From Clostridia bacterium (GTDB lineage: Bacteria; Bacillota; Clostridia; Oscillospirales; Acutalibacteraceae), in assembly GCA_017440965.1 (NCBI GenBank), contig JAFSGH010000044.1:1-50733 (forward strand): 50,733 nt of DNA, given 5' to 3'. The stretch's first letter is position 1, and every line of letters starts with the position of its first letter. The notes beneath the pieces are model-generated. The model was given only the letters and a program-made list of their open reading frames with translations, was not told where the DNA came from and made no database searches. Both the position numbers and the translations under genes were made by a program. Shown in pieces: positions 21,782-50,394 of the stretch.

Positions 21782-22237
21782 ATGACAGAGCACAGCCGTA
21801 AGGCTGTTGAGCTTTTCAGAAGCGGCTATAACTGCTCTCAGGCAGTATTTGCGGCTTTTTCCGATGTTACGGGAATCGACGAAAAGACTTCCGTAAAAAT
21901 GGCTTCTCCTTTCGGCGGAGGTCTCGGAAGACTGAGAGAAATCTGCGGCGCAGTAAGCGGTATGTCACTTGCTGCAGGCTGTCTTTGGGGATATGATGAT
22001 ACAGAAAACAAGGATGCAAAAACCGAACACTATGCACTTATTTCAGGCATGGCAAAGGATTTTGCTGAGGTTTTCGGTTCATACATCTGTAAGGATATCC
22101 TTGCAATAAAAACCACGGAATACTCCCCCGTTGCAGAAAACCGCACGCCTGAGTTTTACGCTCTGCGCCCTTGTGAACGCTGTGTAGCCGTTGCTGCTGA
22201 AATTCTCGATAAACGAATCGAACAGACAAAAAAATAA
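21782..22237 (+). CDS. C_GCAxxG_C_C-type putative redox protein
   Basis: A 151-residue cytoplasmic protein of the Cys-rich C_GCAxxG_C_C family, annotated in general as putatively redox active; no reaction is established. Conserved elements: GYNCSQAVF near the N-terminus, FGGGLGRLREICGAVSGMSL (the CGAxxG element) at about residues 44-63, a Cys in GCLWG, then Cys in GSYICKDIL and the RPCERCV pair near the C-terminus. It follows fba by 3 bp with only a weak ribosome binding site, suggesting translational coupling. Its stop codon TAA is also the first three bases of a dispersed repeat. Confidence 0.85.
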   Translation: MTEHSRKAVELFRSGYNCSQAVFAAFSDVTGIDEKTSVKMASPFGGGLGRLREICGAVSGMSLAAGCLWGYDDTENKDAKTEHYALISGMAKDFAEVFGSYICKDILAIKTTEYSPVAENRTPEFYALRPCERCVAVAAEILDKRIEQTKK

Positions 22238-22343
22238 GAAAAAATCTTACGATTTGTCAACCCCCTACCCCCAATCTGGGGCTGTAGGTGTTTCTTGTTA
22301 TAAGCAAAATTGCTCACATTGCGAGCAATTTCCTATATAATAA
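22235..22343 (+). repeat. Dispersed intergenic repeat, copy 1
   Basis: About 108 bp: TAAGA-n-TCTTA, then CGATTTGTCAACCCCC, a C-run/G-run hairpin (CCCCAATCTGGGG), GGTGTTTCTTGTTATAAGC, the hairpin TTGCTC-ACATTGC-GAGCAA, and TTTCCTATATAATA. The first TAA is the stop codon of the preceding gene. The orientation matches copies 2 to 5. Confidence 0.85.
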
Positions 22344-22348
22344 AACAT

Positions 22349-22387
22349 ATCCGAGGCTCACAAAAAATGTCAGCCTCGGATGTTTTT
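22349..22387 (+). terminator. Terminator hairpin after repeat copy 1
   Basis: ATCCGAGGCT (22349-22358) and AGCCTCGGAT (22372-22381) form a 10-bp stem followed by GTTTTT. It is bracketed by a 15-bp direct repeat, CTATATAATAAAACA (22333-22347 and 22388-22402). It probably ends the fba transcript. Confidence 0.75.
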
Positions 22388-22458
22388 CTATATAATAAAA
22401 CAAATCACAAAGTTACATCAAAAAAAGTGCCGTACATTTTGTTAAAATGCAGGACTTC

Positions 22459-22487
22459 TTGTTTTTTCAGTATCTCTGTGATAAAAT
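22459..22487 (+). promoter_or_regulatory. Probable promoter of nnr
   Basis: TTGTTT (22459-22464), 17 bp, TAAAAT (22482-22487), 30 bp before the start codon and downstream of the terminator. Confidence 0.55.
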
Positions 22488-22517
22488 ATAAGTGATAAAA
22501 CACTAAGGAGAATTTGT

Positions 22518-24035
22518 ATGCAGATACTTTCACCTGATGAAATAAGAAAAGCGGAAGATAACGAAAACGGCAAGGGACTCACATATGAAGAGATGATGGA
22601 AAATGCGGGGACAGGCTGTGCCGGGCATATTCTGTCGCATTATCCCGATAAACAGAATATCGTTATTCTTTGCGGAAAAGGCAAAAACGGCGGAGACGGC
22701 TTTGTTATTGCAAGAAAGCTTTTTGAAGCAAGTAAATCTGTCAGTGTGATAACTGTTTTCAATTCTCCTTCAGATGAGCTTTCAGAAAAAAACAAAAAGA
22801 GAATTGACGACTGTGTCAATATTTTTGACGGCAGCACGGTAAGCCGTAAGACTTTATCGCTGATTGAAGAGGCCGATTTGATAATTGAAGCCGTATTCGG
22901 CATCGGCTTCAGAGGTGAAATGCCCGAAAACATAAAAAGGCTTTTTGCGGCAGCAAACAAAAGTAACGCTGTAAGAATCGCAATTGATATTCCCGGCGGT
23001 CTTTCGGAAAACGCAGTGAATGCAGACGATTGCTTTACAGCTGATGAAACACTTTCAATGCTATGCTTCAAAAAAGAGCATATATATAAGCCGTTCAGTG
23101 ACAAATGCGGTCTTGTCACGGTAATCCCCATAGGCTTTGTCTGCCCCGAAAGCAAGCTTAATTCTGCTTGTATTACGGAAATAAAGAATATGCTTCCCCA
23201 CCGTCCCTTTGATTCAAATAAGGGAACCTTCGGGAAGGCACTTGTTATTTCCGGCAGTTACAAAATGCCCGGAGCTGCAATCATTGCCGCCAAAGCAGCT
23301 CTTTCTACGGGAGCAGGTCTTACTGCTCTTGCTTTTCCCGATCGTATCTATAATACCGTAACATCTCATCTTACAGAATGCGTGTTCCGTCCTCTTCGAT
23401 CCGACTCAGACGGCTGTCTGTCGGCAGAGTATGAACTGTATGACGATATAAAGAGCGACGAATATTCAGCAATCGCAATAGGCCCGGGGCTTTCTGTCTG
23501 CAACGGTGCAGAAAAACTGTTAAGATCGCTGCTTCTGAATTATAAAGGCAAGCTTATTATTGATGCAGACGGAATAAATATAATTTCCCGTAATATAAAT
23601 TTACTGAAGGAGTCCGAGGCAAAAATAATAATGACTCCCCATCCGGGAGAAATGTCAAGACTTACAGGCTTATCGGTAAAAGAGATCAATTCCCGCCGTG
23701 AAGCAGTTGCAGAAGAATTTGCAAAACAGTATAATGTAACGCTTCTTCTTAAGGGTGCAAATACGGTAATTGCTTCTCCCGACGGAAGGCTTTATATCAA
23801 TCCCACAGGCTGTTGCGCACTTTCAAGAGGCGGAAGCGGAGATCTTCTGACAGGCATTATCGTCTCTCTTGCCGCACAGGGGCTTTCCTGTAAGGATGCC
23901 GCGGCAGCAGGTGCATTCATTCACGGACTTGCAGGCGAAACAGCCCAAAGCCTGTTTACCTCCTATTGTGCAACCGTTGAAAGAATATACGATTGCATAC
24001 CGAAGGCTCTTTCAGAAATACTTTCGGGACAGTGA
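22518..24035 (+). CDS. nnr: Bifunctional NAD(P)H-hydrate repair enzyme (epimerase/dehydratase)
   Basis: Repairs hydrated NADH/NADPH. The N-terminal YjeF-type domain (about 1-205) epimerises R- and S-NAD(P)HX; the C-terminal ribokinase-like domain (about 215-500) dehydrates S-NAD(P)HX using ADP. Visible motifs: CGKGKNGGDGFVIARKL (52-68), AVFGIGFRGE and AIDIPGGLS in the N-domain; KGTFGKALVISGSYKMPGAA, TPHPGEMSRLTG and the catalytic GGSGDLLTGII in the C-domain. At 505 aa it is full length. AAGGAG lies 7 nt before the ATG. A lipoprotein gene follows after 4 bp. The enzyme suits an organism that depends on nicotinamide redox balance. Confidence 0.95.
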   Translation: MQILSPDEIRKAEDNENGKGLTYEEMMENAGTGCAGHILSHYPDKQNIVILCGKGKNGGDGFVIARKLFEASKSVSVITVFNSPSDELSEKNKKRIDDCVNIFDGSTVSRKTLSLIEEADLIIEAVFGIGFRGEMPENIKRLFAAANKSNAVRIAIDIPGGLSENAVNADDCFTADETLSMLCFKKEHIYKPFSDKCGLVTVIPIGFVCPESKLNSACITEIKNMLPHRPFDSNKGTFGKALVISGSYKMPGAAIIAAKAALSTGAGLTALAFPDRIYNTVTSHLTECVFRPLRSDSDGCLSAEYELYDDIKSDEYSAIAIGPGLSVCNGAEKLLRSLLLNYKGKLIIDADGINIISRNINLLKESEAKIIMTPHPGEMSRLTGLSVKEINSRREAVAEEFAKQYNVTLLLKGANTVIASPDGRLYINPTGCCALSRGGSGDLLTGIIVSLAAQGLSCKDAAAAGAFIHGLAGETAQSLFTSYCATVERIYDCIPKALSEILSGQ

Positions 24036-24039
24036 TAAT

Positions 24040-24549
24040 GTGAATCGTTTTTCAGCATCTGTAATATCCGTTATACTTATTTTGTGCTTAATGTCCTCCT
24101 GCGGGAATGAAAGCTCGGCAAGCCTTTTGACACCGCAAGGCAGCTTTTCCGTACATATGAAAGCAAAAAAAGGAGAAGCTCTGTTTGAAGCGGATATAGA
24201 TTGCTTTTCATATAACGATATTACACTTACCTTTACCTATCCCGAAGAGCTGTCGGGATTTGCAGTTTCATCCTCAGAGAATGCATATATCATCAACATT
24301 TTCGGTGTAAATGATATAATGTCAGAGGAAGAAATCAGCAAAACCTCTTTGCTGAACATTCTTTTCAATACGATCAGAATATCAGTTTTTTCAAATCACG
24401 GACAATTCAAAAAAGCTGACTCAGGCTTTTCGGCGGCTCTTACAGTTGATGATATCCCAATAAGCGTGACATTTTCCGAGGACGGATATCTTACATCCAT
24501 ATCAGCGGAAGCTATCAATTTTTCTGCTGAGTTTCAAAAATCAGGTTGA
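24040..24549 (+). CDS. Predicted lipoprotein, unknown function
   Basis: A 169-residue protein starting at GTG 24040, 4 bp after nnr. The N-terminus VNRFSASVISVILILCLMSS followed by Cys is a type II signal peptide with lipobox LMSSC (lipidated Cys at residue 21). The mature part is beta-rich, with KKGEALFEADIDCFSYNDIT, TFTYPEELSGF and GYLTSISAE. I do not recognise the family. The frame stays open far upstream inside nnr, but the lipobox fixes the start. There is no strong Shine-Dalgarno, so translation is probably coupled to nnr. The -35 of the alaS promoter overlaps its stop codon. Confidence 0.78.
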   Translation: MNRFSASVISVILILCLMSSCGNESSASLLTPQGSFSVHMKAKKGEALFEADIDCFSYNDITLTFTYPEELSGFAVSSSENAYIINIFGVNDIMSEEEISKTSLLNILFNTIRISVFSNHGQFKKADSGFSAALTVDDIPISVTFSEDGYLTSISAEAINFSAEFQKSG

Positions 24550-24574
24550 CAAAACCGAAAAAAAACAATATACT
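24546..24574 (+). promoter_or_regulatory. Promoter of the alaS T-box transcript
   Basis: TTGACA (24546-24551), 17 bp, TATACT (24569-24574). The -35 overlaps the preceding stop codon. It starts a leader of about 260 nt ahead of alaS. Confidence 0.8.
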
Positions 24575-24581
24575 TCTTTTG

Positions 24582-24815
24582 TAATATATTTTGCAATGGT
24601 ACAGTTAATAAAAGCTTCAGGTCTCCTCAGAGAGAAAACGGTCGGTGCAAGTTTTCGGGATCGGTTTTTATATGCCGCTGTACGGCATCAGGATGATGAA
24701 TTCTGCGTAATTTCTGCGTTAAAGGATATTGAGGGGTGCTTGGCACAATTCGGGTGGTACCGCGGCGAAAGCCGTCCCGAGTATGTGACAGGTGTCTTTT
24801 TTTGTTACGGTAAAA
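24582..24815 (+). promoter_or_regulatory. T-box leader controlling alaS
   Basis: T-box leaders bind uncharged cognate tRNA (here tRNA-Ala, inferred from the downstream gene) and switch from terminator to antiterminator. The AGAGAG element of stem I is at about 24631, followed by CGGTCGGTGCAAG (distal loop). The T-box core GGGTGGTACCGCGG is at about 24751-24764 and pairs into an antiterminator with GCCGTCCCG. The terminator end is a T7 run at about 24798, preceded by only a short GACA/TGTC stem. I could not assign the Ala specifier codon with confidence. Confidence 0.88.
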
Positions 24816-24842
24816 AAATCAGATAAAGGACAGTGAAAAAAA

Positions 24843-27473
24843 ATGGAATGGACAGGACTTAACGAGATACGCGAAAAGTATCTCAGATTCTTTGAATCAA
24901 AAGAACATCTCAGACTCCCCAGCTTTTCCCTTATCCCTCAGGGGGATAAGAGCCTTCTGCTTATAAATGCAGGTATGGCACCTATGAAAAAGTATTTCAC
25001 AGGTGAGGTTACTCCTCCCTCAAAAAGAGTTACCACCTGTCAGAAGTGTATCAGAACTCCCGATATCGAAAGAGTCGGCAAGACCTCCCGTCACGGCACC
25101 TTCTTTGAAATGCTCGGCAATTTCTCATTCGGTGATTATTTCAAGCACGAGGCAACAAAATGGGCTTGGGAATTCTGCACAGAGGTTATGGAAATGCCCG
25201 TCGACAAATTATGGATAAGCATATTTGAGGAAGACGATGAAGCATTCGACATCTGGACAAAAGAGGTAGGCGTTTCTCCCGACAGAATAGTAAGACTCGG
25301 AAGAGAGGATAATTTCTGGGAGCACGGAGCAGGCCCCTGCGGTCCCTGCTCAGAGATCCACTTTGACAGAGGTGCGGAAAACGGCTGCGGCAGTCCTGAC
25401 TGTAAGGTAGGCTGTGACTGTGACAGATTCGTTGAATTCTGGAATCTTGTTTTCACGCAGTTTGAAAATGACGGTAACGGCAATTATACACGCCTTAAGA
25501 ATCCCAATATCGATACAGGTATGGGACTTGAAAGACTTGCCTGTATTTCTCAGGGTGTCGCAAATCTCTTTGAGGTCGATACCATCCAGAACATTATGAA
25601 ACACATAATGGAAATAGCAGGTGTAAAATACCACGAAAACGAAAAAAGCGATGTGTCGCTCCGTGTTATAACCGATCACATCAGAAGCACGACTATGATG
25701 ATCTCCGACGGCGTTATGCCCTCAAATGAAGGCAGAGGCTATGTTCTCAGAAGACTTTTAAGACGCGCAGCCCGTCACGGAAGACTTTTAGGTATTGACA
25801 GACCTTTCCTTTCAGAGGTTTGCGAAACAGTTATCAAGGAAAGCGGTGCCGCTTATCCTCAGCTTACTGAAAAGAAGGATTATATTCTCAAAATAATTGC
25901 TATCGAAGAAGAGAATTTCAACAAGACAATTGACTCAGGACTGAGACTCCTTGAAGAGATGATAGCAGGCTCTGACGGAAAATGCCTCAGCGGCGACGAT
26001 GCATTCAAGCTTTCAGACACCTTCGGCTTCCCTCTTGACCTTACAAGAGAGATCCTTGAGGAAAAGGGAATGAGCGTCGATGAGGACAGATTCAATGAGC
26101 TTATAAAGATCCAGAAGGAAACGGCAAGAAATGCCCGTAAGGATGCAGGTGCCGATGCATGGAAAAATTCTTCCGCTTCTCTTAAGGGTATTCCCGAAAC
26201 GGTATTTACAGGCTATGACAGCATAAACGGTAACGGCAAGGTGCTTGCTATACTCACCTCCTCCGGTGAAACAGCAGAAAACATCGGCGAAGGCGAAGAG
26301 GCTGTTCTTATTCTTGATTCCACATCCTTCTATGCAGAAGGCGGCGGACAGTGCGGTGACAAGGGTACAATAAAAAATTCCGCATTCTCCTTCAAGGTCA
26401 ATGACACAACAAAGAATAACGGCGGAATATTCTTCCATAAAGGCGTAGTTGAAAGCGGAATCGTTTCTGTCGGAGAGGAAGCACAGACCTTCGTCTGCGA
26501 ATCATTCAGAGAAGCAGTAAAGAGAAATCACACATCGGCTCATCTTCTTCAGGCTGCTCTCAGAAGCACGCTCGGCTCACATGTTGAGCAGGCAGGTCAG
26601 CTTGTAAACGAAGCTGTTATGAGATTTGACTTCACACACTTCTCCGCTCTTACTTCCGAAGAGCTCTTAAAGATCGAAAAAGATGTAAATGCAGTTATCC
26701 TTTCTGCACTTTCAGTTGAAAGCTCAGAAAAGACTCTTGCAGAAGCAAAGGCTATGGGTGCTATGGCTCTCTTCGGAGAAAAATACGGCGACACCGTTAG
26801 AGTAGTTAACGCAGGCGGCTATTCTCTTGAGCTCTGCGGCGGTACTCATACAGAGAACACCGGAAAAATAGGTATGTTCAAAATAGTATCCGAAAGCTCC
26901 GTTGCATCAGGTGTCAGAAGAATTGAAGCAGTTACGGGACTTAACGCATTAAGTTATGTAAATGAGCTTAATAATTCTCTTCAGAAGACTGCCGCAGTTC
27001 TTAAGTGCTCCGCTTCTGCGGTTGCAGACAAGGCTCTGGCTCTTTCCAACGAGCTCAAGGCAAAGGACAAGCAGATAGAAAAGCTCAATTCCGAGCTTGC
27101 TTCTGCAAAGGCTGCAGATCTCTTTACAAAGGTCGGAGAATTTAACGGTATAACCGTACTTACTGCCGATCTCGGTGAAGCAGATGCAAATGCTCTCAGA
27201 ACGATGCTCGACTCCTCAAAGGCCGATGACAGCATAATAGTTGTTGCAGGCAAGAATTCGGAAAAGGGTACCTGCTCATTTGCCTGTGCCTGCGGCAAGG
27301 AAGCAATTGCAAAGGGTGCTCACGCAGGTAATATCGTAAGAGAAACAGCAAAAATTGCAGGCGGTGCAGGAGGCGGAAAGCCTGATTCTGCAATGGCAGG
27401 CGGTAAGGATATAACAAAAATATCAGAGGCTCTCGCAGCTGTAAGCGGTATAGCTGAAGCCCTGATAAAATAA
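24843..27473 (+). CDS. alaS: Alanyl-tRNA synthetase
   Basis: Charges tRNA-Ala; full length at 876 aa. The class II catalytic core begins MEWTGLNEIREKYLRFFESK with motif 1, motif 2 in RTPDIERVGKTSRHGTFFEM, and motif 3 in TGMGLERL. The C-terminal editing domain has the zinc ligands HTSAHLL and CGGTH, and the C-Ala domain ends with GGAGGGKPDSAMAGG. A Cys-rich insert CGSPDCKVGCDC occurs in the catalytic domain (about residues 182-193). The ribosome binding site is AAAGGA, 11 nt before the ATG. Controlled by the T-box upstream; a HIT-family gene follows after 12 bp. Confidence 0.97.
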   Translation: MEWTGLNEIREKYLRFFESKEHLRLPSFSLIPQGDKSLLLINAGMAPMKKYFTGEVTPPSKRVTTCQKCIRTPDIERVGKTSRHGTFFEMLGNFSFGDYFKHEATKWAWEFCTEVMEMPVDKLWISIFEEDDEAFDIWTKEVGVSPDRIVRLGREDNFWEHGAGPCGPCSEIHFDRGAENGCGSPDCKVGCDCDRFVEFWNLVFTQFENDGNGNYTRLKNPNIDTGMGLERLACISQGVANLFEVDTIQNIMKHIMEIAGVKYHENEKSDVSLRVITDHIRSTTMMISDGVMPSNEGRGYVLRRLLRRAARHGRLLGIDRPFLSEVCETVIKESGAAYPQLTEKKDYILKIIAIEEENFNKTIDSGLRLLEEMIAGSDGKCLSGDDAFKLSDTFGFPLDLTREILEEKGMSVDEDRFNELIKIQKETARNARKDAGADAWKNSSASLKGIPETVFTGYDSINGNGKVLAILTSSGETAENIGEGEEAVLILDSTSFYAEGGGQCGDKGTIKNSAFSFKVNDTTKNNGGIFFHKGVVESGIVSVGEEAQTFVCESFREAVKRNHTSAHLLQAALRSTLGSHVEQAGQLVNEAVMRFDFTHFSALTSEELLKIEKDVNAVILSALSVESSEKTLAEAKAMGAMALFGEKYGDTVRVVNAGGYSLELCGGTHTENTGKIGMFKIVSESSVASGVRRIEAVTGLNALSYVNELNNSLQKTAAVLKCSASAVADKALALSNELKAKDKQIEKLNSELASAKAADLFTKVGEFNGITVLTADLGEADANALRTMLDSSKADDSIIVVAGKNSEKGTCSFACACGKEAIAKGAHAGNIVRETAKIAGGAGGGKPDSAMAGGKDITKISEALAAVSGIAEALIK

Positions 27474-27485
27474 AGGAGAATCGCA

Positions 27486-27824: not shown

Positions 27825-27835
27825 TAAATACCTCG

Positions 27836-27872
27836 GGCGCTGTGTCACAAGGACACAGCGCCTGTTTTATTT
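27836..27872 (+). terminator. Terminator of the alaS-HIT transcript
   Basis: GGCGCTGTGTC and GACACAGCGCC form a perfect 11-bp stem with a 5-nt loop, followed by TGTTTTATTT. Confidence 0.88.
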
Positions 27873-28187: not shown

Positions 28188-28286
28188 TTTCTGAAAAACA
28201 GTCTGCCTGCTGTCGGCAGAATAGACAGTCTGATGTAAAAAACTCCAATAATCTTTTATATTATCGGAAGTAATTTCCGTAATGAA

Positions 28287-29140: not shown

Positions 29141-29249
29141 TAAGAAAATATCTTACGATTTGTCAACCCCCTGCCCCCAATCTTGGGGGCTGTAGGTGTT
29201 TCTTGTTATAAGCTAAATTGCTCACAACGCGAGCAATTTCCTATATAAT
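29141..29249 (+). repeat. Dispersed intergenic repeat, copy 2
   Basis: A complete copy: TAAGA/TCTTA end, TTGTCAACCCCC, perfect CCCCC-AATCTT-GGGGG hairpin, TTGTTATAAGC, hairpin TTGCTC-ACAACGC-GAGCAA (loop differs from copy 1, stem does not), and CTATATAAT. It ends 23 bp before the start codon of the alarmone synthetase. Confidence 0.85.
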
Positions 29250-29272: not shown

Positions 29273-29941
29273 ATGAACGATAACAATTCACAAAAGAGCT
29301 TCAGCTTACTTTTTGATGAGGATAAAATAAAGGCATCCACTCCTTTTATACATGAATATGAAAAGCTGATGGCATATTACCGATGTGCCATTATGGAAAT
29401 TGAAACAAAATTCAATGTCCTTAATCAGGAATTCTCCCTAAGATATGACAGAAATCCCATCAGCTCGATAAAAAGCAGATTAAAGACGCCCCGCAGTGTA
29501 ATAGAAAAGCTTGAAAGACTTGATAAGGCTTTTACAATAGAAAACATAGAAAGCTACCTTAATGATGTTGCAGGCATAAGAGTGGTATGCTCATTCCCGA
29601 ATGATGTATATCTTCTGGCAAACGCACTTTTGGGACAAGACGATATAACGCTCATAAGAGAGAAGGATTATATAAAGAATCCGAAAGACAACGGCTACAG
29701 AAGTCTTCATCTTATAGTCACCGTTCCGATTTTCCTTGCAAGTGAAAAAAGACTTATGAAGGCAGAAATACAGCTGCGCACGATCGCAATGGATGTCTGG
29801 GCAAGCCTTGAGCATCAGCTTAAATACAAAAAGGATATCCCCTTCACATCCGATATGGAAAACGAGCTTCTTTACTGCGCAAAGCTCAGCTCAGAGCTTG
29901 ATACAAGAATGGATAACCTCAGAAAACTGACAAACAACTAA
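29273..29941 (+). CDS. Small alarmone synthetase (RelA/SpoT synthetase domain only)
   Basis: A 222-residue (p)ppGpp synthetase of the RelQ/RelP type, with neither hydrolase nor regulatory domains. Motifs: SSIKSRLKTPRSVIEKL (ATP-binding Arg/Lys, residues 64-80), NDVAGIRVVCSF (Asp 98, Mg binding), KDYIKNPKDNGYRSLHLIV (G-loop with substrate-stacking Tyr, 131-149), AEIQLRTIAMDVWASLEHQL (ExQ catalytic element, 164-183). It makes alarmone from ATP and GDP/GTP and tunes growth under stress. A repeat copy sits immediately upstream; a GAAAGG Shine-Dalgarno lies about 11 nt before the ATG. Confidence 0.93.
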   Translation: MNDNNSQKSFSLLFDEDKIKASTPFIHEYEKLMAYYRCAIMEIETKFNVLNQEFSLRYDRNPISSIKSRLKTPRSVIEKLERLDKAFTIENIESYLNDVAGIRVVCSFPNDVYLLANALLGQDDITLIREKDYIKNPKDNGYRSLHLIVTVPIFLASEKRLMKAEIQLRTIAMDVWASLEHQLKYKKDIPFTSDMENELLYCAKLSSELDTRMDNLRKLTNN

Positions 29942-42397: not shown

Positions 42398-42447
42398 GTT
42401 GATTTGGTTTTTTCAATATGCTAAAATATTTTATGATCTTATAAAAA

Positions 42448-42549
42448 AGCATTCTGCTTCACCCCCCCCGTCCCCCAATCTTGGGGGCGAAAAGGTGTTT
42501 TTTGTTATAAGCAAAATTGCTCACATTGCGAGCAATTTCCTATATAATA
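42448..42549 (+). repeat. Dispersed intergenic repeat, copy 3 (tandem with copy 4)
   Basis: It starts AGCATTCTGCTT rather than TAAGA/TCTTA, a variant 5' end shared with copy 5. It then has CCCCCCCCGTCCCCCAATC with TTGGGGG, TTGTTATAAGC, TTGCTC-ACATTGC-GAGCAA and CCTATATAATAA. Its end runs directly into copy 4. Confidence 0.85.
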
Positions 42550-42657
42550 AGAAAAAATCTTACGATTTGTCAACCCCCTACCCCCAATCTTGGGGGCTAT
42601 AGGTGTTTCTTGTTATAAGCTAAATTGCTCACATTGCGAGCAATTTCCAATATAATA
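42548..42657 (+). repeat. Dispersed intergenic repeat, copy 4
   Basis: A complete copy with the TAAGAAAAAATCTTA 5' end, CCCCC-AATCTT-GGGGG hairpin, TTGTTATAAGC, TTGCTC-ACATTGC-GAGCAA and AATATAATA. It ends 19 bp before the start codon of the NifU-C-like gene, so the gene's ribosome binding site lies immediately after the repeat. Confidence 0.85.
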
Positions 42658-42675
42658 AAAAAGGATGATACACTA

Positions 42676-42909
42676 ATGAAGGATTATATCAACAATGTGC
42701 TCTCTCCCCTTTTACAGGGTGACGGCGGATATATTGAGTATCTGAATGAAAATAAAGATGAGATAACCGTCCTTGCAAGAGGCGAATGCTCTAAATGTGC
42801 TAAGCTTGAAAAATGCCTTATATGGTGCGAAGACCGAATATTAAAAGAAAAAAACAGAAAGGTCAGACTCACGGCAATAAGAAAAAAGCCGTTCTTCTGG
42901 GATAAGTGA
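42676..42909 (+). CDS. Small NifU-C-like protein with extra Cys
   Basis: A 77-residue protein. The pattern VLSPLLQGDGGYIEYLNENK, then ITVLARGECSKC, follows the C-terminal domain of NifU/NfuA Fe-S scaffold proteins (P-x-L-x2-DGG ... V-x-L-x-G-x-C-x2-C). Instead of the usual SS-T segment it continues AKLEKCLIWCEDRI, giving four Cys (CxxC plus CxxxC), and a basic tail. It may bind or transfer an Fe-S cluster; this is inference from a weak resemblance. The ATG at 42676 has AAGGA 9-10 nt upstream. It precedes the mannosidase by 8 bp, so the two are probably co-transcribed from the region of the repeats. Confidence 0.72.
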   Translation: MKDYINNVLSPLLQGDGGYIEYLNENKDEITVLARGECSKCAKLEKCLIWCEDRILKEKNRKVRLTAIRKKPFFWDK

Positions 42910-42917
42910 GGTAAGCT

Positions 42918-45857
42918 ATGGCACATATAAAGGTTGTAAGACGCTCAATGCGTCCTGAGGAATATATAGAATTAAGATACGGCTGGCTCAAAAACAGCAT
43001 TTATTCAAAAATGTACGAGCTGTCTCCCGTTTATATAAAAGAGGCTCATCAGATCAGCGAAAATGAATATGAGTTTTACGACAGCGATTACAGACTTCTT
43101 TCGGTGGGTGACACCTTCTATTCCCCTGACGGAAGTGCTTTCCTGAAATGCAAATGTGAGATCCCCGAAGAGCTTATCGGAAAGGATTACTGCTTTTATT
43201 TCAAGACCGCCAGTGAAATGATAGTAAAAATCAACGGAAAATACGCGGGCGGTGTTGATCCCAACCGTGAAAGGATTCCTGCCTCTGAATTTGTGACGGG
43301 AAACAAAATATTCATCGAAACAGAGGGCTTTAACCGTTCAAAGCCTGATGATGAAAGAAATCCCGAAACTCTTGCAAGACGCGGCTGCAGACAGGAATTC
43401 ACAGGCTTATTCCTTACAACAGTTAACAAAAATATACAGTCTCTCTGTTATGATCTTGAAATATTCACTGATATAATTTCAAGCGGACAGTTTAACGAAG
43501 AGTATACCTCGATTCTGATATCAAGACTTGATAAGGCACTTAATCTTATTGATTATGACAACATAACCGAAGTGGATGCAAAAAAAGCAATTGATTATAT
43601 TGAAGAGCATATTTATGCCGATAAAACATACCGTTCATCAGGCAAGGTTGCTCTTGTGGGACATTCTCATCTTGATATAGCATATTACTGGAGAAGAATA
43701 CACGCGGTTCAGAAGAATATGCGTACCGTTCTCATTCAGATGCGTCTTATGGATAAGTATCCCGATTTCAGATATGCGCATACTCAGGGATATACATATG
43801 AAACACTTGAAAAATACTATCCCGAGGTATTTGAAGAATTAAAGCAAAAAATAAAAGAGGGCAGATTTGAAATTGTCGGAGCAATGTATGTTGAGCCCGA
43901 CTGTAATGTACCCTCCGCCGAAAGTCTCATAAGACAATGCCTTTACGGTCAGCATTATTTTCGTGACAAGTTCGGGATCACCGTGGACTCCTGCTTTCTC
44001 CCCGATGTTTTCGGAAACTCATGGATACTGCCGCAGATATTAAAGAAGAGCGGTGTAAACTATTTCATTTCAAACAAAATGAGTACATGGAATGACACAA
44101 ACCGCTTCCCTCACAATAATTTTATCTGGAGAGGAGCTGACGGCAGCGAGGTCTACGCTTCAGTCCCTCCCACACATTTTATCACATGGAACGAACCGTC
44201 TCAGATCGTCGAAAACTGGGAGGCTTTTCAGGATAAGCACACAGATACGGAAACTCTCTCTATGTTCGGCTACGGTGACGGAGGCTCAGGTGCAACCGAG
44301 GAAATGATAGAGCTTATGCACCGATTTGACAAGCTTTCCGTTATGCCTGAGACAAGGCATATTACTGTAAAGGAATTTCTGCACGATAATTTCAATGAAG
44401 CTCACCATTTTGATGTTTGGGACGGAGAATTGTATCTTGAAATGCACAGAGGTACATTTACGACAAAATCCGATATCAAAAAATACAACAGAAGGCTGGA
44501 AAATAAATTCCGTCTCTGCGAAATGCTTTCAGTCCTGAGGGCAAAAGAAGGAAAAATTTATCCTGAAGAAAAAATAAGAGAGCTTTACAAAAAGCTTCTT
44601 ATAAATCAGTTCCACGATATACTCCCAGGCAGCCATATAACTCCTGTTTTCCGCGACTGCATAAAGGACTATAAGGAAATAGAGGCAGAGCTTGACAGTA
44701 TTATTTCCGTCGGAGATACATACTTCAATCCCCTCAATATCGAAAGACAAGGTGTTGAGTTCATTGAAGATAAAAACGGCAGTTTTGTAAGAGAAGGCAA
44801 AAAAGGTGATTACCGCAAAACGGATTTCGCTCCCCTTTCTTCAGGTAAAATCAATAAAGACTCAGATGCAGTATGGCTTTCTGTTAACGAAAACACTATC
44901 GAAACTCCGTTTTATAGAATTTCTTTTGCAGAAGACGGAAGTATAGTATCATTGTTTGACATTATTCTTGACAGAGAATTCACTGACGGAGATTTCAATA
45001 AGCTCAAATTCTACGATGACCGTCCCGGTGTATATGATGCCTGGGATATACTTCCTGATTACAAGAACAAGGAAATACCGTTAGCCGTCACCGAGCGCTT
45101 ACACCTTGTTTTCAGTGATAGCGAAACAGCAGAATTCAGTGTTACACAAAGCACAGAGAAAAGCACCTGGCAGAGAAAGATCCGTCTTTTCAGGAATTCA
45201 AGAAAAATCGAGGTAGAAAACATTGTAGACTGGCACGAAATCCATAAGCTGATGAAGGTTGCCTTTAATTGCAATATTCTTACCCGTGAGCTTACCTGTG
45301 ATACCTCTGCAGGATATATCAAGCGTGAAATGCACCGCAACACCTCCTGGCAGCAGGCAAGATTTGAATGCTGTCACCATAAATGGTTTGATGTTTCAGA
45401 GGCTGATGCAGGTATCGCAGTTATCAATGACTGCAAATACGGTGTCGGTGTTTCGGATAAGGAGATCACTCTTTCGCTTCTTCGAGCAACCGAACGCCCC
45501 GATCCGCTGTCTGACCTCGGAGCACACAATTTCACCTATGTTATTCTTCCTCACGGAGAATTTTCTTACGGCGAAATAAATAATGAAGCTCTTATATTCA
45601 ATAATCCCCTTATTCTTACAGATAATTTATCTGTACCTGAGGAATGGTGCGCTGACAAAAAGCTCATTCTTCAGAGTGTAAAAAAGGCTGAAAAATCAGA
45701 TATGACCGTGCTTCGATTTGTTGAAACAAACGGTTCAAGAGGTAAAATAAGCTTCAAAAACAAGGTAAAGCTTCTTAATATGCTTGAGGATGTCATTGAA
45801 GAAACAGATACAATAATTTACAAGCCCTTTGAGATCATCACAATAGGCACGGACTAA
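42918..45857 (+). CDS. GH38 alpha-mannosidase
   Basis: A 979-residue retaining alpha-mannosidase, probably cytoplasmic (no signal peptide). An N-terminal beta domain (1-240) precedes the catalytic domain: GHSHLDIAYYW (zinc ligands His and Asp, 248-258), YVEPDCNVPSAESLIRQ (325-340), and nucleophile D363 in FLPDVFGNSWILPQIL. The zinc His HDILPGSH is further on. The C-terminal beta-sandwich region runs from about 620 to the end. The substrate class is alpha-mannosides such as host N-glycan or yeast-mannan fragments (inference). GAGGT lies 6 nt before the ATG. It ends at a bidirectional terminator. Confidence 0.94.
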   Translation: MAHIKVVRRSMRPEEYIELRYGWLKNSIYSKMYELSPVYIKEAHQISENEYEFYDSDYRLLSVGDTFYSPDGSAFLKCKCEIPEELIGKDYCFYFKTASEMIVKINGKYAGGVDPNRERIPASEFVTGNKIFIETEGFNRSKPDDERNPETLARRGCRQEFTGLFLTTVNKNIQSLCYDLEIFTDIISSGQFNEEYTSILISRLDKALNLIDYDNITEVDAKKAIDYIEEHIYADKTYRSSGKVALVGHSHLDIAYYWRRIHAVQKNMRTVLIQMRLMDKYPDFRYAHTQGYTYETLEKYYPEVFEELKQKIKEGRFEIVGAMYVEPDCNVPSAESLIRQCLYGQHYFRDKFGITVDSCFLPDVFGNSWILPQILKKSGVNYFISNKMSTWNDTNRFPHNNFIWRGADGSEVYASVPPTHFITWNEPSQIVENWEAFQDKHTDTETLSMFGYGDGGSGATEEMIELMHRFDKLSVMPETRHITVKEFLHDNFNEAHHFDVWDGELYLEMHRGTFTTKSDIKKYNRRLENKFRLCEMLSVLRAKEGKIYPEEKIRELYKKLLINQFHDILPGSHITPVFRDCIKDYKEIEAELDSIISVGDTYFNPLNIERQGVEFIEDKNGSFVREGKKGDYRKTDFAPLSSGKINKDSDAVWLSVNENTIETPFYRISFAEDGSIVSLFDIILDREFTDGDFNKLKFYDDRPGVYDAWDILPDYKNKEIPLAVTERLHLVFSDSETAEFSVTQSTEKSTWQRKIRLFRNSRKIEVENIVDWHEIHKLMKVAFNCNILTRELTCDTSAGYIKREMHRNTSWQQARFECCHHKWFDVSEADAGIAVINDCKYGVGVSDKEITLSLLRATERPDPLSDLGAHNFTYVILPHGEFSYGEINNEALIFNNPLILTDNLSVPEEWCADKKLILQSVKKAEKSDMTVLRFVETNGSRGKISFKNKVKLLNMLEDVIEETDTIIYKPFEIITIGTD

Positions 45858-45895
45858 AAAAATAAGCTCCCCGAAAGGCTCGGGGAGCAATTTTT
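45858..45895. terminator. Bidirectional terminator between the mannosidase and the phosphoesterase
   Basis: GCTCCCCGA and TCGGGGAGC pair around AAGGC, with an A-run before and TTTTTATTT after. Confidence 0.9.
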
Positions 45896-45900
45896 ATTTA

Positions 45901-47061
45901 TCAGAACATTGCTTTTATTGTTGCAAAAATCATCTTGAACCAAGCAACAAACTTTGTAAGATCATCAGTTGTTCTTGAATATGCCTGATATCTGTAAAGA
46001 GCTGCTTCGTCATCACCGTAGACATCGAAGTAACCTTCTACATATGTCTCATAATTTTCGGGATCGTTTTCATCAATAACAAATACGCGGGAGCCTACTG
46101 TCTCATCGTTATAAGAGCTGAAGCCGACACCGGGAGTGTTTACAATATCAATACCCTCATAAGGAACAACAAAGTTGTTAACATGATCGTGTCCTGATAC
46201 TGTTGCAAACACATCACCCTGCTGTTTGAAGGCTGCAAACTGACCGTTGTTGTAGTTGGGAGGACAGGGACTCTCGTGAAGATGACCTTCAACGCCTTCG
46301 GGAAGAGTAAGATATTTATCTCCGCGTGAAATGGATTCGGGAGTACCTGCTTCACATTCTGCAAGAGCATCAAAAATCTCAGGAACAATAATGTGCTGGA
46401 AGTTGATTGAGGGAACGGGATTGCCACCGTTGAGCGCCTTAAGCTCATTCGACTTTTCAACATACCATGCAATCTGCTCTTTTGTGGTGCATGCATAACC
46501 GCCAAGATCATTTTCGGTATTATATGTGCCGGAGTCTGTCATCCAGATATTGAATGCAATTCTTGTTCCGTCGGAAGAAACAACGGGAATATTATATGTG
46601 CCGACACCGGGAATGCTGTCGCCTTCATTGTAACCGACAAAGCAGTCATAGGACTCATAGACAGACATCTGAAAGTCCTTGTCAGCAAATTCACTTTCAT
46701 CATCATGATTTCCGAAAACAGCAGCTGTGGGAACACCTGCTTTTTCAAAAATGCTCATAAATTCATTTATTGCTGCACGGGTAATTACCTTTGTATTAGT
46801 GCTTCCGCCTGAAATATTATCACCTGTAAGCACAACAAGGTCAGGCTGTACCTTTGCCAATGTGTCCTGAAGGAGCTTCTTTGTGATAGTCATAAGAGGA
46901 TATCCGTCCTGAATATCAGCAAACTGTAAAATTGTAAATTTGCCGTCATCTCCGAAACGAAGCGTATTGTCCTTTTCCTGTGCTGATACAACAAGTGACA
47001 TTACACCAAACAGCATAAGAGCACTTAAAATAACAGCAAGAATTTTCTTTGTTCTGTTCAT
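45901..47061 (-). CDS. Secreted calcineurin-like metallophosphoesterase
   Basis: A 386-residue exported protein. Signal peptide residues 1-27 (MNRTKKILAVILSALMLFGV, cleavage near VSA|QEK). Metallophosphoesterase motifs: LQFADIQDG (D49; Gln where most families have the metal His), LTGDNISGG (80-86), FGNHDDE (116-122), and the C-terminal SGHDHVN. The closest resemblance is to the bacterial Dcr2/PAP-like group of phosphodiesterases and phosphatases. The last 20 residues are hydrophobic and amphipathic (KFVAWFKMIFATIKAMF) and may associate with the membrane. The ATG at 47059-47061 is preferred over one 21 codons upstream because the signal peptide starts there and AAGAG precedes it. Confidence 0.9.
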   Translation of the reverse strand: MNRTKKILAVILSALMLFGVMSLVVSAQEKDNTLRFGDDGKFTILQFADIQDGYPLMTITKKLLQDTLAKVQPDLVVLTGDNISGGSTNTKVITRAAINEFMSIFEKAGVPTAAVFGNHDDESEFADKDFQMSVYESYDCFVGYNEGDSIPGVGTYNIPVVSSDGTRIAFNIWMTDSGTYNTENDLGGYACTTKEQIAWYVEKSNELKALNGGNPVPSINFQHIIVPEIFDALAECEAGTPESISRGDKYLTLPEGVEGHLHESPCPPNYNNGQFAAFKQQGDVFATVSGHDHVNNFVVPYEGIDIVNTPGVGFSSYNDETVGSRVFVIDENDPENYETYVEGYFDVYGDDEAALYRYQAYSRTTDDLTKFVAWFKMIFATIKAMF

Positions 47062-47095
47062 TGTTATCTCTTCTTTCTTAATAATTTGTGTAATT

Positions 47096-47124
47096 ATATT
47101 AGCATAAACTATATTTTTTTTCAA
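47096..47124 (-). promoter_or_regulatory. Probable promoter of the phosphoesterase gene
   Basis: On the minus strand TTGAAA (47119-47124), 17 bp, TAATAT (47096-47101). Confidence 0.55.
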
Positions 47125-47131
47125 TGTTTAA

Positions 47132-47160
47132 TTGCATTTTTTGTAAAAAAGATATATTAT
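47132..47160 (+). promoter_or_regulatory. Probable promoter of the deacetylase-like gene
   Basis: TTGCAT (47132-47137), 17 bp, TATTAT (47155-47160). Its -35 is 8 bp from the -35 of the divergent promoter, so the two genes share one control region. Confidence 0.55.
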
Positions 47161-47187
47161 GAAAAAAAAGACTATGGGGACAAGGCT

Positions 47188-48729
47188 ATGAAAAATATTA
47201 TTAATATTATCAATTTTGCAAGAAAATGCGAGCCCAGATCCGAAGATGACAGTTTTCTTTTTTCAACAACCAAAGAGGAATTAGAGCTCTGCAGAAAATA
47301 TAATTTTCCGTCTACCGTGCTTCTGCAATATGATGCTCTCATTGACGATGAATATATTGATTTATTAAAAAATTATCAGAACAATATTGAAATAGGTCTT
47401 TGGTTCGAGGTAGTAGAGCCGCTTACCGAAGCTGCGGACATTCCCTGGAAGGGCAGATTTCCTTGGGACTGGCACAGTGATGTAGGCTTTTCAGTCGGTT
47501 ACACCCCAGAGGAACGAATAAAGCTTATTGATGAGGCTTTCGGAAAATTCAAGGAGATATTCGGATACTATCCTGACTCCTGCGGCTCCTGGCATATAGA
47601 TGCATATTCTCTTGATTATATGTATAAGACCTACAATATCACAGCCTCTTGCAACTGTAAGGAGCAATACGGTACAGACGGCTATACTATCTGGGGCGGT
47701 ATATATTCGGGAGCCTACTATCCCTCGAAATACAATATGCTCTGCCCTGCAACCACTACCGAAAATCAGATAAATGTCCCCGTTTTCAGAATGCTCGGTG
47801 CTGACCCTATATATCAATATGATATGAATATCGGTTCCCCTGATGCCGTTCAGCATGTCACCTCTCTTGAGCCGGTATACGGAAATTCAGGCTGTAACGA
47901 AAATTGGGTAAGCTGGTATCTTAAAGAAAATTTCAACGGCAAGGGCATTTCTATGTCTTATACACAGACAGGTCAGGAAAATTCCATGGGATGGAAGGAT
48001 ATTTCCAAGGGACTTCCGATGCAGTTTGATATCATTGATAAAATGAAAAAAAAAGGAGAAATAGAACTTCTCACACTTAAAGACAGCGGAGTATGGTTTA
48101 AGGAAAATTATGAATTCACACCGCCTCAGGCTCAGATGTTTGATTCGGATATAAATGATAACAGATATAAAACCGTATGGTATAACTGCAAAAACTACAG
48201 AGTTAATGTCTTGTACGAAAAAGGCAGGATATGGATCAGAGATCTTTACTGCTTCAATGAGCTGTTCAAAGAAAAGTATATTTATTGCCGCGAAGACAGT
48301 CATAACTGCTCATATTATACACTGCCCGTTGTTGACGGCTTCAGATTCAGCGACAGGAACACACGAGCAGGCTTATATTTTATGCACAACGATCACGAAA
48401 TAAGCTTTTCTTCTCCTTGGCGAACATTCACAAAAGACAGCACCGCAAATATTTATCTTGGCGAAGAGCTTAAGATAACTGCCGATGAAAAGTGTATCAG
48501 CATCAGATGCAGCAAGAAAAACTGGCATATGAGCTGTATTAATTCCGAAAATGCCGTCCTTCCGTATTTAACGGCGGAAAACAAAACGCTTGAAATGAAT
48601 TTCCGCTATTTCGGAGATGAGGACTTCTTCTATAGTCTGAAGCTCGACAAAGGTTATTTCAGAATAAGCAAAAACGGATTTATGATGTTCCCTGAAGACG
48701 GAGAAATCAAAATAGCGTTCCGAATTTAA
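47188..48729 (+). CDS. Polysaccharide-deacetylase-like (beta/alpha)-barrel protein
   Basis: A 513-residue cytoplasmic protein. The N-terminal 300 residues look like a NodB/glycoside-hydrolase-type barrel: INIINFARKCEPRSEDD, strand FPSTVLLQYDAL, NIEIGLWFEVVEP, WHSDVGFSVGYTPEERIKLI, and FGYYPDSCGSWHIDAYSLDY. The Asp/His pairs could bind metal. The rest (about 330-513) is a beta-rich accessory domain. I think it falls in a deacetylase-like family of unknown substrate (possibly the DUF3863/3864 type), but cannot prove this. The start at 47188 uses GGGGA 7 nt upstream; the open frame 34 codons further up has no site. Proximity to GH38 and a phosphoesterase suggests glycan processing. Confidence 0.7.
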   Translation: MKNIINIINFARKCEPRSEDDSFLFSTTKEELELCRKYNFPSTVLLQYDALIDDEYIDLLKNYQNNIEIGLWFEVVEPLTEAADIPWKGRFPWDWHSDVGFSVGYTPEERIKLIDEAFGKFKEIFGYYPDSCGSWHIDAYSLDYMYKTYNITASCNCKEQYGTDGYTIWGGIYSGAYYPSKYNMLCPATTTENQINVPVFRMLGADPIYQYDMNIGSPDAVQHVTSLEPVYGNSGCNENWVSWYLKENFNGKGISMSYTQTGQENSMGWKDISKGLPMQFDIIDKMKKKGEIELLTLKDSGVWFKENYEFTPPQAQMFDSDINDNRYKTVWYNCKNYRVNVLYEKGRIWIRDLYCFNELFKEKYIYCREDSHNCSYYTLPVVDGFRFSDRNTRAGLYFMHNDHEISFSSPWRTFTKDSTANIYLGEELKITADEKCISIRCSKKNWHMSCINSENAVLPYLTAENKTLEMNFRYFGDEDFFYSLKLDKGYFRISKNGFMMFPEDGEIKIAFRI

Positions 48730-48824
48730 AAGGTTTCTTAAAAGTTTTACATTTTATTCTGAAGATAAATCAACTTACCTGAACAAACAAATTGTTGATA
48801 ATACTCTTAACTGTTAATCACAAT

Positions 48825-48874
48825 GACAGCCGCATACGGCGAGTGCCTTAAGGACACTTACCGATGCGGCTGTC
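48825..48874. terminator. Long hairpin between convergent genes
   Basis: GACAGCCGCAT (48825-48835) and ATGCGGCTGTC (48864-48874) form a perfect 11-bp stem with a partly self-paired interior (AGTG...CACT). The following T-run is weak on the plus strand (TGTTTATT), and on the minus strand the stem is followed by ATTGTGATT. Probably a shared terminator. Confidence 0.6.
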
Positions 48875-48883
48875 TGTTTATTA

Positions 48884-49567
48884 CTATTCTTTTATTAAGG
48901 AATACTCACCGTTTCTGAGAATAGATGCAAGCTCTTCAGATGTAATAATTCTTTTATCTGTAATTATTCCGCCGTGCGACAAAACATGAGAAAGATGCGC
49001 ATCTGCACCCGATGTCAGAATAAGATTATTGCGAGTAGCGGCATATTTCTCTGCAAGCTCATTTTCATCCGGCAAATTTCCGAAATTAAATACTTCTATA
49101 CCGTCAACAAATTGTTCAGGCAAAGGTCCGAAGTCCGGCATATAGCTTCTTTGCCTGAAGGGATGAGCCTGAATTATTATAACTCCGAGCGCTGACAATG
49201 TTTTATACCATATCTCTGGACTTTTTTCCTTAAGCTCCGGATGAGAATAAAGCATTTCAGGAGTTAGTCCGTAACAAAGGATTTCTTTCCCGGAGCCGAC
49301 ATGCTCTTCTATACCGAAAAGAATATTTATTCCGTATTTTTCTGCGGCTTTACAGCATTCAAGATAATCCTTTTCATAAAAGCTTATAAATTTTTTCCAC
49401 GGAAGCTCCCTGTCAATTCCGCAATTTCCGTTATAAAAATGATTTGTCAGCACACAGCCGGCATAACCGGCTTCATGCAAGCCTCTGATAAGATCATAAG
49501 GCTTTATCCGACCGCAGTGACTGCAGGGAGATGTATGACAATGCATCTGATATTTAAATTCAGCCAT
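48884..49567 (-). CDS. PHP-domain metal-dependent phosphoesterase
   Basis: A 227-residue PHP-superfamily protein, as in histidinol phosphatases and 3',5'-nucleotide phosphatases. Metal-binding motifs in order: YQMHCHTSPCSHCG (HxH, residues 7-20), TNHFYNG, GIEEHVGSG, IQAHPFRQRS, and TSGADAHLSH. It lacks the C-terminal extension of the larger nucleotidases. The substrate is unknown. The ATG at 49565-49567 has AAAGGTG 5 nt upstream; an earlier in-frame ATG would add a 20-residue extension over that site. Convergent with the deacetylase-like gene. The 49568-49711 gap contains a GAAAGC-GT-GCTTTC inverted repeat and otherwise nothing I recognise. Confidence 0.85.
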   Translation of the reverse strand: MAEFKYQMHCHTSPCSHCGRIKPYDLIRGLHEAGYAGCVLTNHFYNGNCGIDRELPWKKFISFYEKDYLECCKAAEKYGINILFGIEEHVGSGKEILCYGLTPEMLYSHPELKEKSPEIWYKTLSALGVIIIQAHPFRQRSYMPDFGPLPEQFVDGIEVFNFGNLPDENELAEKYAATRNNLILTSGADAHLSHVLSHGGIITDKRIITSEELASILRNGEYSLIKE

Positions 49568-49711
49568 ATTAACACCTTTTTTCAGTTTATTTGCAAATAA
49601 CATCAACAAGATGCTTTCGCAGAGCACATCTTCCGGGAAAGCGTGCTTTCATCGAAGATATAAATAATTTATTTCTTTACAAAAAAATATTCAGGCAAAA
49701 CTACTAAACGC

Positions 49712-50221
49712 TCATTTTAGCTCGATCCAAAAGCGCATCATTTCTTTTCCCTCAAATTCAACTGTGTTTTCAAGCACTCCGCCGTTTGATACTATTGTTT
49801 TCATAGAGGGAATATTAGTTTTATTGCAGCACATGAGTACTCGGGGTATTCCCAGCTTTTTACATTCATCAAGCGCTAAAGCAACAAGCTTCGTACCATA
49901 ACCCTTTCTTCGCTCAGAAGGTCTTACACCGTCTCCGATATGCCCCACGCCCTGAAGAAGCCTTTCATTGAGATAATGACGGATATTACATGCGCCAATA
50001 AAAATATTTCTTTCATCATCATAAAGAAAAAAAGTAGAATCAGGTACAAGCCTGCTATCTCTCTCTTTAATTTCAAGCTCAGAAAGATACTTTTCTTTAT
50101 TATGATAGTCATTCTTCACAATAGCATATGGAACGACGCTTTCTTCTGCAGCTGTCCATTCATCCAGCATATCAATAAGAAGATCAAAATTATCCTTATT
50201 CAGTTTCACAAGCCGCAGCAT
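49712..50221 (-). CDS. GNAT-family N-acetyltransferase
   Basis: A 169-residue acyltransferase. The acetyl-CoA-binding motif A is VGHIGDGVRPSERRKGYGTK (pyrophosphate-binding RRKGYG), followed by LVALALDECKKLGIPRVLMC and NIPSMKTIVSNGG (motif B). The layout matches the large group of uncharacterised GNATs close to Yhfo/RimJ-like proteins; the substrate is unknown. AAGGAG lies 9 nt before the ATG at 50219-50221; the in-frame ATG nine codons upstream overlaps this site and is rejected. Confidence 0.88.
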   Translation of the reverse strand: MLRLVKLNKDNFDLLIDMLDEWTAAEESVVPYAIVKNDYHNKEKYLSELEIKERDSRLVPDSTFFLYDDERNIFIGACNIRHYLNERLLQGVGHIGDGVRPSERRKGYGTKLVALALDECKKLGIPRVLMCCNKTNIPSMKTIVSNGGVLENTVEFEGKEMMRFWIELK

Positions 50222-50297
50222 ATCCTCACTCTCCTTGACAAAACTCACAATTCAACATACATTTTCACGTATCGTGCATTCTTTCCTAAACTACAAG

Positions 50298-50394
50298 AGC
50301 ATTCTGCTTTAACAATGTGTTCACGATCTTGTGGATTAAAAGGTGATTTTTGCTATAGGCGAAACTGCTCACTTTGCAAGCAATTTACTATAAA
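50298..50394 (+). repeat. Dispersed intergenic repeat, decayed copy 5
   Basis: It starts AGCATTCTGCTT like copy 3, but the C-run hairpin is lost (TTCACGATCTTGTGGAT in its place). AAAGGTGATTTTTGCTATAGGC, CTGCTCACTTTGCAAGCAATTT and ACTATAAA correspond to the rest. Both hairpins are weakened, so this looks like an old or inactivated copy. It lies between the GNAT gene and the rRNA terminator. Confidence 0.7.

Follow-up and report, generated by a model that had tools for sequence, protein, structure and literature searches.

Elements of the IS91 family (IS91, IS801, IS1294 and ISCR) are already known, and other single-strand transposons are likewise known to have miniature derivatives. In the excerpts cited here, IS91-type elements are held to be moved by an HUH transposase that starts at oriIS and ends at terIS (PMC13393415, PMC5876387). 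The subject of this analysis is a family of repeats of about 105-110 bp, five copies of which lie in a 50,733-nucleotide contig (JAFSGH010000044.1, the whole of which is termed the window) of the Clostridia bacterium assembly GCA_017440965.1 (Oscillospirales, Acutalibacteraceae). These repeats are very probably non-autonomous miniature derivatives of the IS91 family, of the HUH/Y2 single-strand, rolling-circle type, a reading built from sequence: from their ends, hairpins and covariation, their target preference, empty sites in relatives and a gene of the partner type that this genome carries. By analogy, an IS91-type transposase family would move the repeats, and the strand chemistry and the end at which the process starts or finishes would follow the same model.

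Like IS91-family elements, the repeats have structured ends, no inverted repeats seen and a target preference on the side of the right end, and apparently also no target duplication; they differ in being gene-less, in a site that is mostly T|AAAA beside a hairpin, and in belonging with a clade that carries an extra small acidic frame. Bacterial miniature inverted-repeat transposable elements (MITEs), such as RUP, the Correia elements and MITEPsy1, are likewise short, present in many copies, non-autonomous and mostly intergenic. RUP and the Correia elements have terminal inverted repeats and a target duplication, and an excerpt on MITEPsy1 describes the same features (PMC3189936). In the repeats, in contrast, neither was seen, the terminal inverted repeats of a classical MITE being absent by eye, and their partner is an HUH element. 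In layout alone they recall the BOX elements of Streptococcus pneumoniae, which are modular with optional or repeated modules, except that the repeats have a transposon family with the same ends.

PATE (IS200/IS605 palindrome elements) and REP/RAYT combine single-strand transposition with a hairpin near the end and no target duplication. Helitrons share these traits, form head-to-tail arrays and insert between A and T, as described in the cited excerpt (PMC5876387). Non-autonomous Helitrons, PATE and REP/RAYT all differ from the repeats in transposase group and in their ends. Group IIC introns, which target terminator stem-loops, resemble the repeats in target choice, although they are unrelated retroelements working through RNA and a reverse transcriptase. 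Their DNA target is described as structured in the excerpt consulted (PMC10190682). Among the matches listed for the open-access literature, no IS91-derived miniature family, no terminator-targeting IS91 element and no such repeats in these families were reported.

Composition and spread of the repeat family

The window is contig C19 of an 86-contig, 2.28-Mb assembly (genome G000), and all positions are given in window numbering. The copies and their parts are as follows.

22236..22341, plus strand: copy 1, subtype A (module 1A and module 2)
22349..22387, plus strand: intrinsic-terminator-like hairpin ATCCGAGGCT..AGCCTCGGAT with a T-run, directly 3' of copy 1, assigned by sequence
29142..29249, plus strand: copy 2, subtype A
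29173..29190, plus strand: hairpin 2 of copy 2 (GCCCCCA-ATCT-TGGGGGC), part of the left end
29215..29239, plus strand: hairpin 3 of copy 2 (AAATTGCTC..GAGCAATTT), part of the right end, with compensatory changes in relatives
29240..29249, plus strand: right terminal sequence of copy 2 (CCTATATAAT), corresponding to CCTATAAAG of autonomous elements
42443..42548, plus strand: copy 3, subtype B, unit 1 of a head-to-tail B-A pair
42549..42656, plus strand: copy 4, subtype A, unit 2 of the pair
50293..50396, plus strand: copy 5, subtype B, degenerate, with a hairpin at 50419-50440 past its right end

The five copies in one orientation had been recognised in a first-pass annotation of the window, with starts 1-5 bases off. 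The core sequence TTGTCAACCCCC, which it had placed in copies 1, 2 and 4, is confined to these, copies 3 and 5 forming a second subtype with another left part; the loop change it saw in copy 2 (ACATTGC to ACAACGC) is real, and two copies do end shortly before a start codon, copy 2 at 23 bases from the ATG of a RelA/SpoT-domain gene (29273-29941) and copy 4 at 19 bases from the ATG at 42676. The right part is common to both subtypes and the left part distinct, subtype A starting T|AAGAAAAAATCTTACGATTTGTCAACCCCC and subtype B T|AAAAAAGCATTCTGCTTCAACCCCC.

A unit joins module 1, which ends in TTGTTAT and is of type A, type B or another left-hairpin type, to module 2 (AAGCTAAATTGCTC..TATATAAT). 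Full units occur head to tail, module 2 is repeated by itself on contigs C65, C16 and C27, module 1 follows module 1 on C34 and C65, and in ten copies from relatives modules 1 and 2 are separated by a third one, about 38 bp long. AT stands at the left of 67 and AA at the right of 90 of the 96 units.

The first-pass annotation had proposed a search with copy 2 and a covariance model, and had named a handful of copies genome-wide without any in relatives as the outcome that would speak against a family. What emerged was a large family with copies in congeners and with compensatory changes. Copy 2 gave at least 53 blastn matches at E<=10 in its own assembly (40 of 65 candidates scored), the best non-self match having E 1.3e-48, and the covariance model, for which 75 of the 80 distinct units were aligned and five interrupted or partial copies set aside, matched at least 102 places there at E<=0.01, with rough E-values and with 148 of the 1121 candidates scored. 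The copy number is far above chance.

Distribution across genomes is patchy. Model matches were found in 14 of the 26 genomes of the genus, with 102 in G000, 71 in G013, 33 in G015, 16 in G018, 12 each in G021 and G017 and fewer in the others, G022 and G025 having a single weak match each; by blastn, 11 of the 25 congeners have copies. Restriction to the genus, suggested by blastn (0/33 genomes outside it), was overturned by the model, which found members in 2 of 148 sampled genomes of the family outside the genus (12 matches in G096 and 3 in G174), the sample of 150 having included two that in fact belong to it.

Each copy has three hairpins, and the stems of two of them covary between subtypes. 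The left end runs from a short A-run through hairpin 1, TCAAC and a C-run to the CAATCTTG hairpin (hairpin 2, CCCCC/GGGGG), and the right end consists of hairpin 3 followed by TTTCCTATATAAT. In hairpin 3, 98.7% of cells pair, compared with 25-50% in slid controls; both-side changes occur in 3 of 8 pairs (a value reached by 10 of 500 shuffles) and in 19 cells vs 2.8 in shuffles, numbers that are inflated by the relatedness of the units, and pair types show no excess over shuffles (4 vs 4.5). Hairpin 1 is swapped wholesale with its stem kept (AAATC/GATTT, AAGCA/TGCTT, TCGTC/GACGA, TGCC/GGCA), although 4 of 75 units have no stem and some only three pairs; it reads ACGCC/GGCGT by sequence in G096, and AAGTGTC/GACACTT or AATAGGC/GCCTATT in autonomous elements. 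The selection on structure that the first-pass annotation had seen hinted at by the single loop change is supported by compensatory changes in hairpin 3 and by replacement of the whole stem in hairpin 1. Its failure to see terminal inverted repeats was also borne out: judged by eye on the alignment, the left end (AAGAAAAAATCTTACG or AAAAAAGCATTCTGC) is not complementary to the right end (CCTATATAAT). As in elements of the IS91 type, both ends are built on hairpins.

Two further observations concern the window itself. Positions 50503-50733 lie inside a minus-strand 23S rRNA gene, copy 5 being downstream of the 23S 3' end, and at 12391-14008 a sequence recurs in five copies with 384-bp spacing within a 730-aa minus-strand frame.

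Autonomous IS91-type elements and their shared ends

As the first-pass annotation had stated for transposases in general, none of the IS91 kind was seen in the window; the candidate partner sits on contig C84 of the same genome. The element at C84:18963-20138 has a 392-aa open frame that matches NF033538 with a score of 301.7 (E 6.7e-90, cut-off 125), PF04986 (E 1.2e-40) and PF14319 (E 6.1e-22), and is by these matches an IS91-family HUH and Y2 transposase with a zinc-binding N-terminus. Its left end, AAAAAATTGTCTTCGACAAATCATTACCCCCCTGCCCCCTCAATCATGAGGGGG, has the same layout as that of the repeats, and the transposase is followed on its 3' side by a small acidic frame and then by CGAGGAATTTCCTATAAAG at the contig end. 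A 5'-truncated module 1A remnant lies at C84:18829, and the left end of the element starts exactly at the internal TTGTTAT|AA of this remnant, so that insertion into the remnant is likely, and only likely because the right side of the element is unassembled.

A scan of GTDB representatives gave 363 transposase relatives, and the counts for the autonomous clade refer to the best 80 of these (loci L101-L180), the majority of which are Lachnospiraceae by record name or by genus. The motif WNPHIH is present in 82/82 clade protein frames, a partly circular count in that KWNPHIH was one of two search patterns, and YxGRY in 81/82. At 34 loci the left ends read (T)AAAAA or GAACAAAG, a hairpin, a TTCAACTCCCC-like and then a CCCCTCAATCTTGAGGGG-like stretch. 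TCAAC/TCAGC was found at 68 of the 72 left ends that the test took from the 80 loci, with a preceding hairpin in 65 of those 68. Behind the transposase, TTTCCTATA follows within 600 nt in 63 of the 80 loci, mostly as TTTCCTATAAAG. Inverted repeats were not seen by eye at the ends of clade elements, and the bases at the two flanks differ at two loci, L113 and L119.

Within the genus, the right end in G023 reads ..AAATTTCCTATAAAGC and is followed by a hairpin; this genome is the public metagenome-assembled genome 'Oscillospiraceae bacterium HAN078', a 2716-base stretch of which is identical to the start of L103. The match in G006 covers transposase residues 321-392 only, and its right end adjoins an A-run and a hairpin.

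The two ends connect the repeats with these elements. Module 1 of subtype A aligned to the left end of the IS91-clade element of Candidatus Galacturonibacter with a score of 29 (500 letter shuffles: mean 7.1, maximum 13), and subtype B reached 23 (shuffle maximum 12), while at the right end GAGGAATTTCCTATAAAG of the C84 element stands beside GAGCAATTTCCTATATAAT of the repeats. By these matches, both ends of the repeats are homologous to those of an autonomous IS91 element, more weakly so for the own-genome copy.

Lachnospiraceae bacterium A2 carries another miniature family of this kind. This genome has 28 left-end matches, and among the 13 loci viewed, eight have TTTCCTATA 127-176 nt further on, one is the autonomous element and four are ambiguous; the left ends of the eight short loci are almost the same, letter for letter, as that of the genome's autonomous copy.

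Several observations were made alongside. Other short elements ending in TTTCCTATA or similar were seen at L250 (G006:C38), in the flank of L098 and at L157, L161 and L173, with palindromic right ends (TATAGGAA..TTTCCTATA) and in part with GC-rich left parts (AAAACGGCTTCGCCGT), and these are possibly further miniature families of the clade. Another multicopy element of the own genome, with ends CAATGTCATTAAGTTAA in both orientations, showed 10 distinct junctions (two of which may be the sides of one insertion), and 8 of them place it within hairpin 2 of a repeat, as if it targeted CCCCCAATCT; it was met mostly at contig ends (L254, L255, L256, L258, L259, L041, L045 and L042), and its gene was not found in the fetched stretches. 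The small acidic frame (..PPEGMTSEDIRxMSxDDLLDMDYFL..EGFYIF) stands 3' of the transposase in L101-L180 and at L040:3334-3513, its PPEG/PPDG motif being present in 71/80 loci, and the L040 protein had no Pfam or NCBIfam match. The same IS91 clade was also seen outside Clostridia, in L126 (Streptococcus caballi) and L113 (a Bacteroidales metagenome-assembled genome, possibly wrongly binned), and on contigs called viral at three loci (L181-L183).

Target site, empty sites and a possible mechanism

The preferred site of miniature and autonomous elements alike is T|AAAA followed by a terminator-like hairpin. An A-run of at least four bases lies to the right of the right end in 42/56 autonomous and 52/63 miniature cases, compared with 1/52 and 0/61 at 200 nt further, and a hairpin lies within 20 nt in 42/56 and 41/63, compared with 4/52 and 8/61. 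In the autonomous count 24 of the 80 loci were excluded, 17 without the right-end motif and seven with a motif that was oddly placed or with a contig end or N cutting the flank; in the miniature count 13 of 76 distinct right flanks were judged tandem and excluded, at least one tandem row (L003) remaining. With one of 83 blocks dropped for its short flank, a hairpin was present at the right of 51/82 miniature insertions vs 11/82 at the left (Fisher p about 1e-10), by a test that does not require a T-run and on sites whose independence is reduced by the relatedness of some of the genomes. Among T|AAAA insertions a hairpin was found at 30/47, vs 68/331 other intergenic T|AAAA sites (p about 4e-9). 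Selection against harmful insertions alone would hardly yield this right-side polarity, though it is not fully separable from target choice. Some right flanks of the clade start with GAAC or CAAG, the tetranucleotides of IS91.

When the flanks are joined, the junction reads TAA in 64/83 sites and forms the in-frame stop of a same-strand upstream frame in 20/83 vs 16/245 other intergenic TAAA[AG] sites; at copy 1 the frame on the upstream side (21782-22237) ends in a TAA stop supplied by the left junction T|AA. Fifteen of the 83 sites lie inside a called frame, frames being called by length only. Neighbouring genes are convergent at 22 of the 83 blocks, (-,-) at 19, (+,+) at 15 and divergent at 10, one or both sides being open at 17. 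A target duplication of more than 2 bp was not seen at the repeats, and one of 1-2 bp (T, AT or TA) is possible because the element itself ends in AT. A TA duplication of the IS630/Tc1 type, prompted by T|AA at both junctions, was dropped, no inverted repeats being seen.

Presence and absence at orthologous sites, compared for two insertion sites of the window, points to mobility of the repeats. Copy 1 is absent in G013, G015 and G018, where a terminator-like hairpin and T-run follow within about 20 bases of the orthologous gene end, and the pair of copies 3 and 4 is absent in G013 and G018, other sequence filling the gap in G018 and G006. At the copy 1 site of G006 (L247, G006:C41), an insert of a few hundred bases was noted inside the terminator-like hairpin, parts of it resembling the start of contig C2 of the own genome.

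In the mechanism proposed for the repeats, a transposase of the IS91 type, supplied in trans, would nick the right end and peel off one strand until stopped at the left-end hairpins, and the freed strand would enter a T|AAAA target after its T and before the AA, without a target duplication. The preferred A-run would be the 5' flank of an intrinsic-terminator hairpin, and exposed hairpins of this kind may attract or position the transposase complex. Existing copies contain target-like sites of their own, one at the left end (T|AAG/T|AAA) and one inside, at the TTAT|AAGC junction, and insertion there would account for the head-to-tail arrays and for duplicated or mixed modules.

Competing explanations and implications

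The first-pass annotation had left three proposals side by side: a non-autonomous mobile element, a structured RNA and a portable promoter or insulator. The mobile element has gained an autonomous partner family and stands. A conserved structured RNA or regulatory family (a 3' or 5' untranslated region element, or a processing or termination signal) that spread through its usefulness is now very unlikely. Copies 1-4 do fold better than shuffles (z -3.5 to -4.2; copy 5 no better, z -0.28), their hairpins covary, and some copies follow a stop codon and precede a terminator-like hairpin, or stand ahead of a ribosome-binding site. Covariation, however, does not favour RNA, because a transposon end needs hairpins too, and the minus strand, tested for copies 2 and 3, folds equally well or better (z -4.3 and -6.5), as would be expected of DNA hairpins rather than of one RNA. 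Against the RNA there also stand the mixed orientation relative to genes, the coincidence of the repeat ends with transposon ends, the empty sites in congeners and the Rfam search, which found no family above the gathering score at the copies and matched only LSU rRNA within the window.

Promoter-like matches do exist: a consensus scan of 42400-42720 gave five sites vs 1.0 (standard deviation 1.1) in shuffles, two of them CTCACA-17-TATAAT and one a minus-strand TTGACA-18-TATTAT with 11/12 matches, and the oriIS end of ISCR1 carries outward promoters according to the excerpt cited (PMC13393415). That the right end (CTCACA-N17-TATAAT) or, reading outward, the left end (TTGACA-N18-TATTAT) serves as a portable promoter or insulator driving the neighbours is nevertheless extremely improbable, and was abandoned as the nature of the element: the closing TATATAAT corresponds to the transposon right end, which mostly reads TTTCCTATAAAG in autonomous relatives, so that TATAAT is not a conserved core; a transcript from the right end would often stop at once at the hairpin that follows 51/82 insertions; and TTGACA is a feature of subtype A lying inside the conserved left-end TCAAC. 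Subtype A copies of the own genome carry this outward-reading TTGACA, and the match at 42573-42544 on the minus strand reaches from the left end of copy 4 into that of copy 3 where the two units meet. RNA or promoter roles are possible as side effects of a mobile element. Derivation from another single-strand transposon (an IS200/IS605-type palindrome or REP/RAYT), its ends having become IS91-like by convergence, deserves hardly any credence. Hairpin ends, a short 5' target and the lack of inverted repeats and duplication are common to that whole group, but both ends and the compound target match the IS91 clade at letter level, and in one genome the second miniature family and an autonomous IS91 copy have a left end in common; no search aimed at TnpA_Y1, RAYT or IS200/IS605 genes was made.

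Several points weigh against derivation from IS91. Excision, circles or new insertions were not observed, and weak points are the count of left-end hairpins, the partly circular count of motifs and the right flank of the C84 element, which is unassembled. The left end of that element matched the repeats with scores of just 15 and 17 (shuffle maximum 14), distant relatives matching better. Transposase relatives occur in only 3/26 genus genomes, one as a C-terminal fragment, and NF033538 is matched in only 2/26; no relative was found in the copy-bearing G013, G015 and G018, nor in G096 and G174, for which control genomes also lacked matches in the same search. Most of the genomes that bear copies thus show no partner gene. 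Copies without a visible partner may be as in old miniature elements or may have been moved by something else, and in copy-rich genomes the IS91 gene may either have been lost after the spread or be unseen, the assemblies being incomplete to varying degree. In four other genomes viewed, 17/17 left ends run into transposase frames and no miniature form was seen. At 31/82 insertions the hairpin test found none at the right, and a large survey over all genomes reports IS91 as under-represented between convergent genes in the excerpt cited (PMC9208149), given which the terminator-side habit may be special to the clade studied here.

A broader proposal, on which the evidence is evenly balanced, is that DNA structure guides the choice of target in a whole IS91-type clade spread over Clostridia and in two or more miniature families derived from it, the structure being the hairpin of an intrinsic terminator, read as single strand, with insertion at T|A-run. 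If true, this would be an HUH counterpart of group IIC introns and a safe-harbour strategy in which the stop codon and the terminator are both left intact. Recognition of the terminator hairpin itself, if it occurs, would make these elements a clear example in bacteria of a single-strand transposon whose target choice is guided by structure. Landing just before transcription-stop signals probably disturbs genes little, and such a target rule would help to explain how dozens of copies are carried in a 2.3-Mb genome with little damage. High-copy intergenic repeats of gut Clostridia easily stay unexplained, and the IS91 link would tell where those studied here come from, where exactly they end and by what rule they choose a target.

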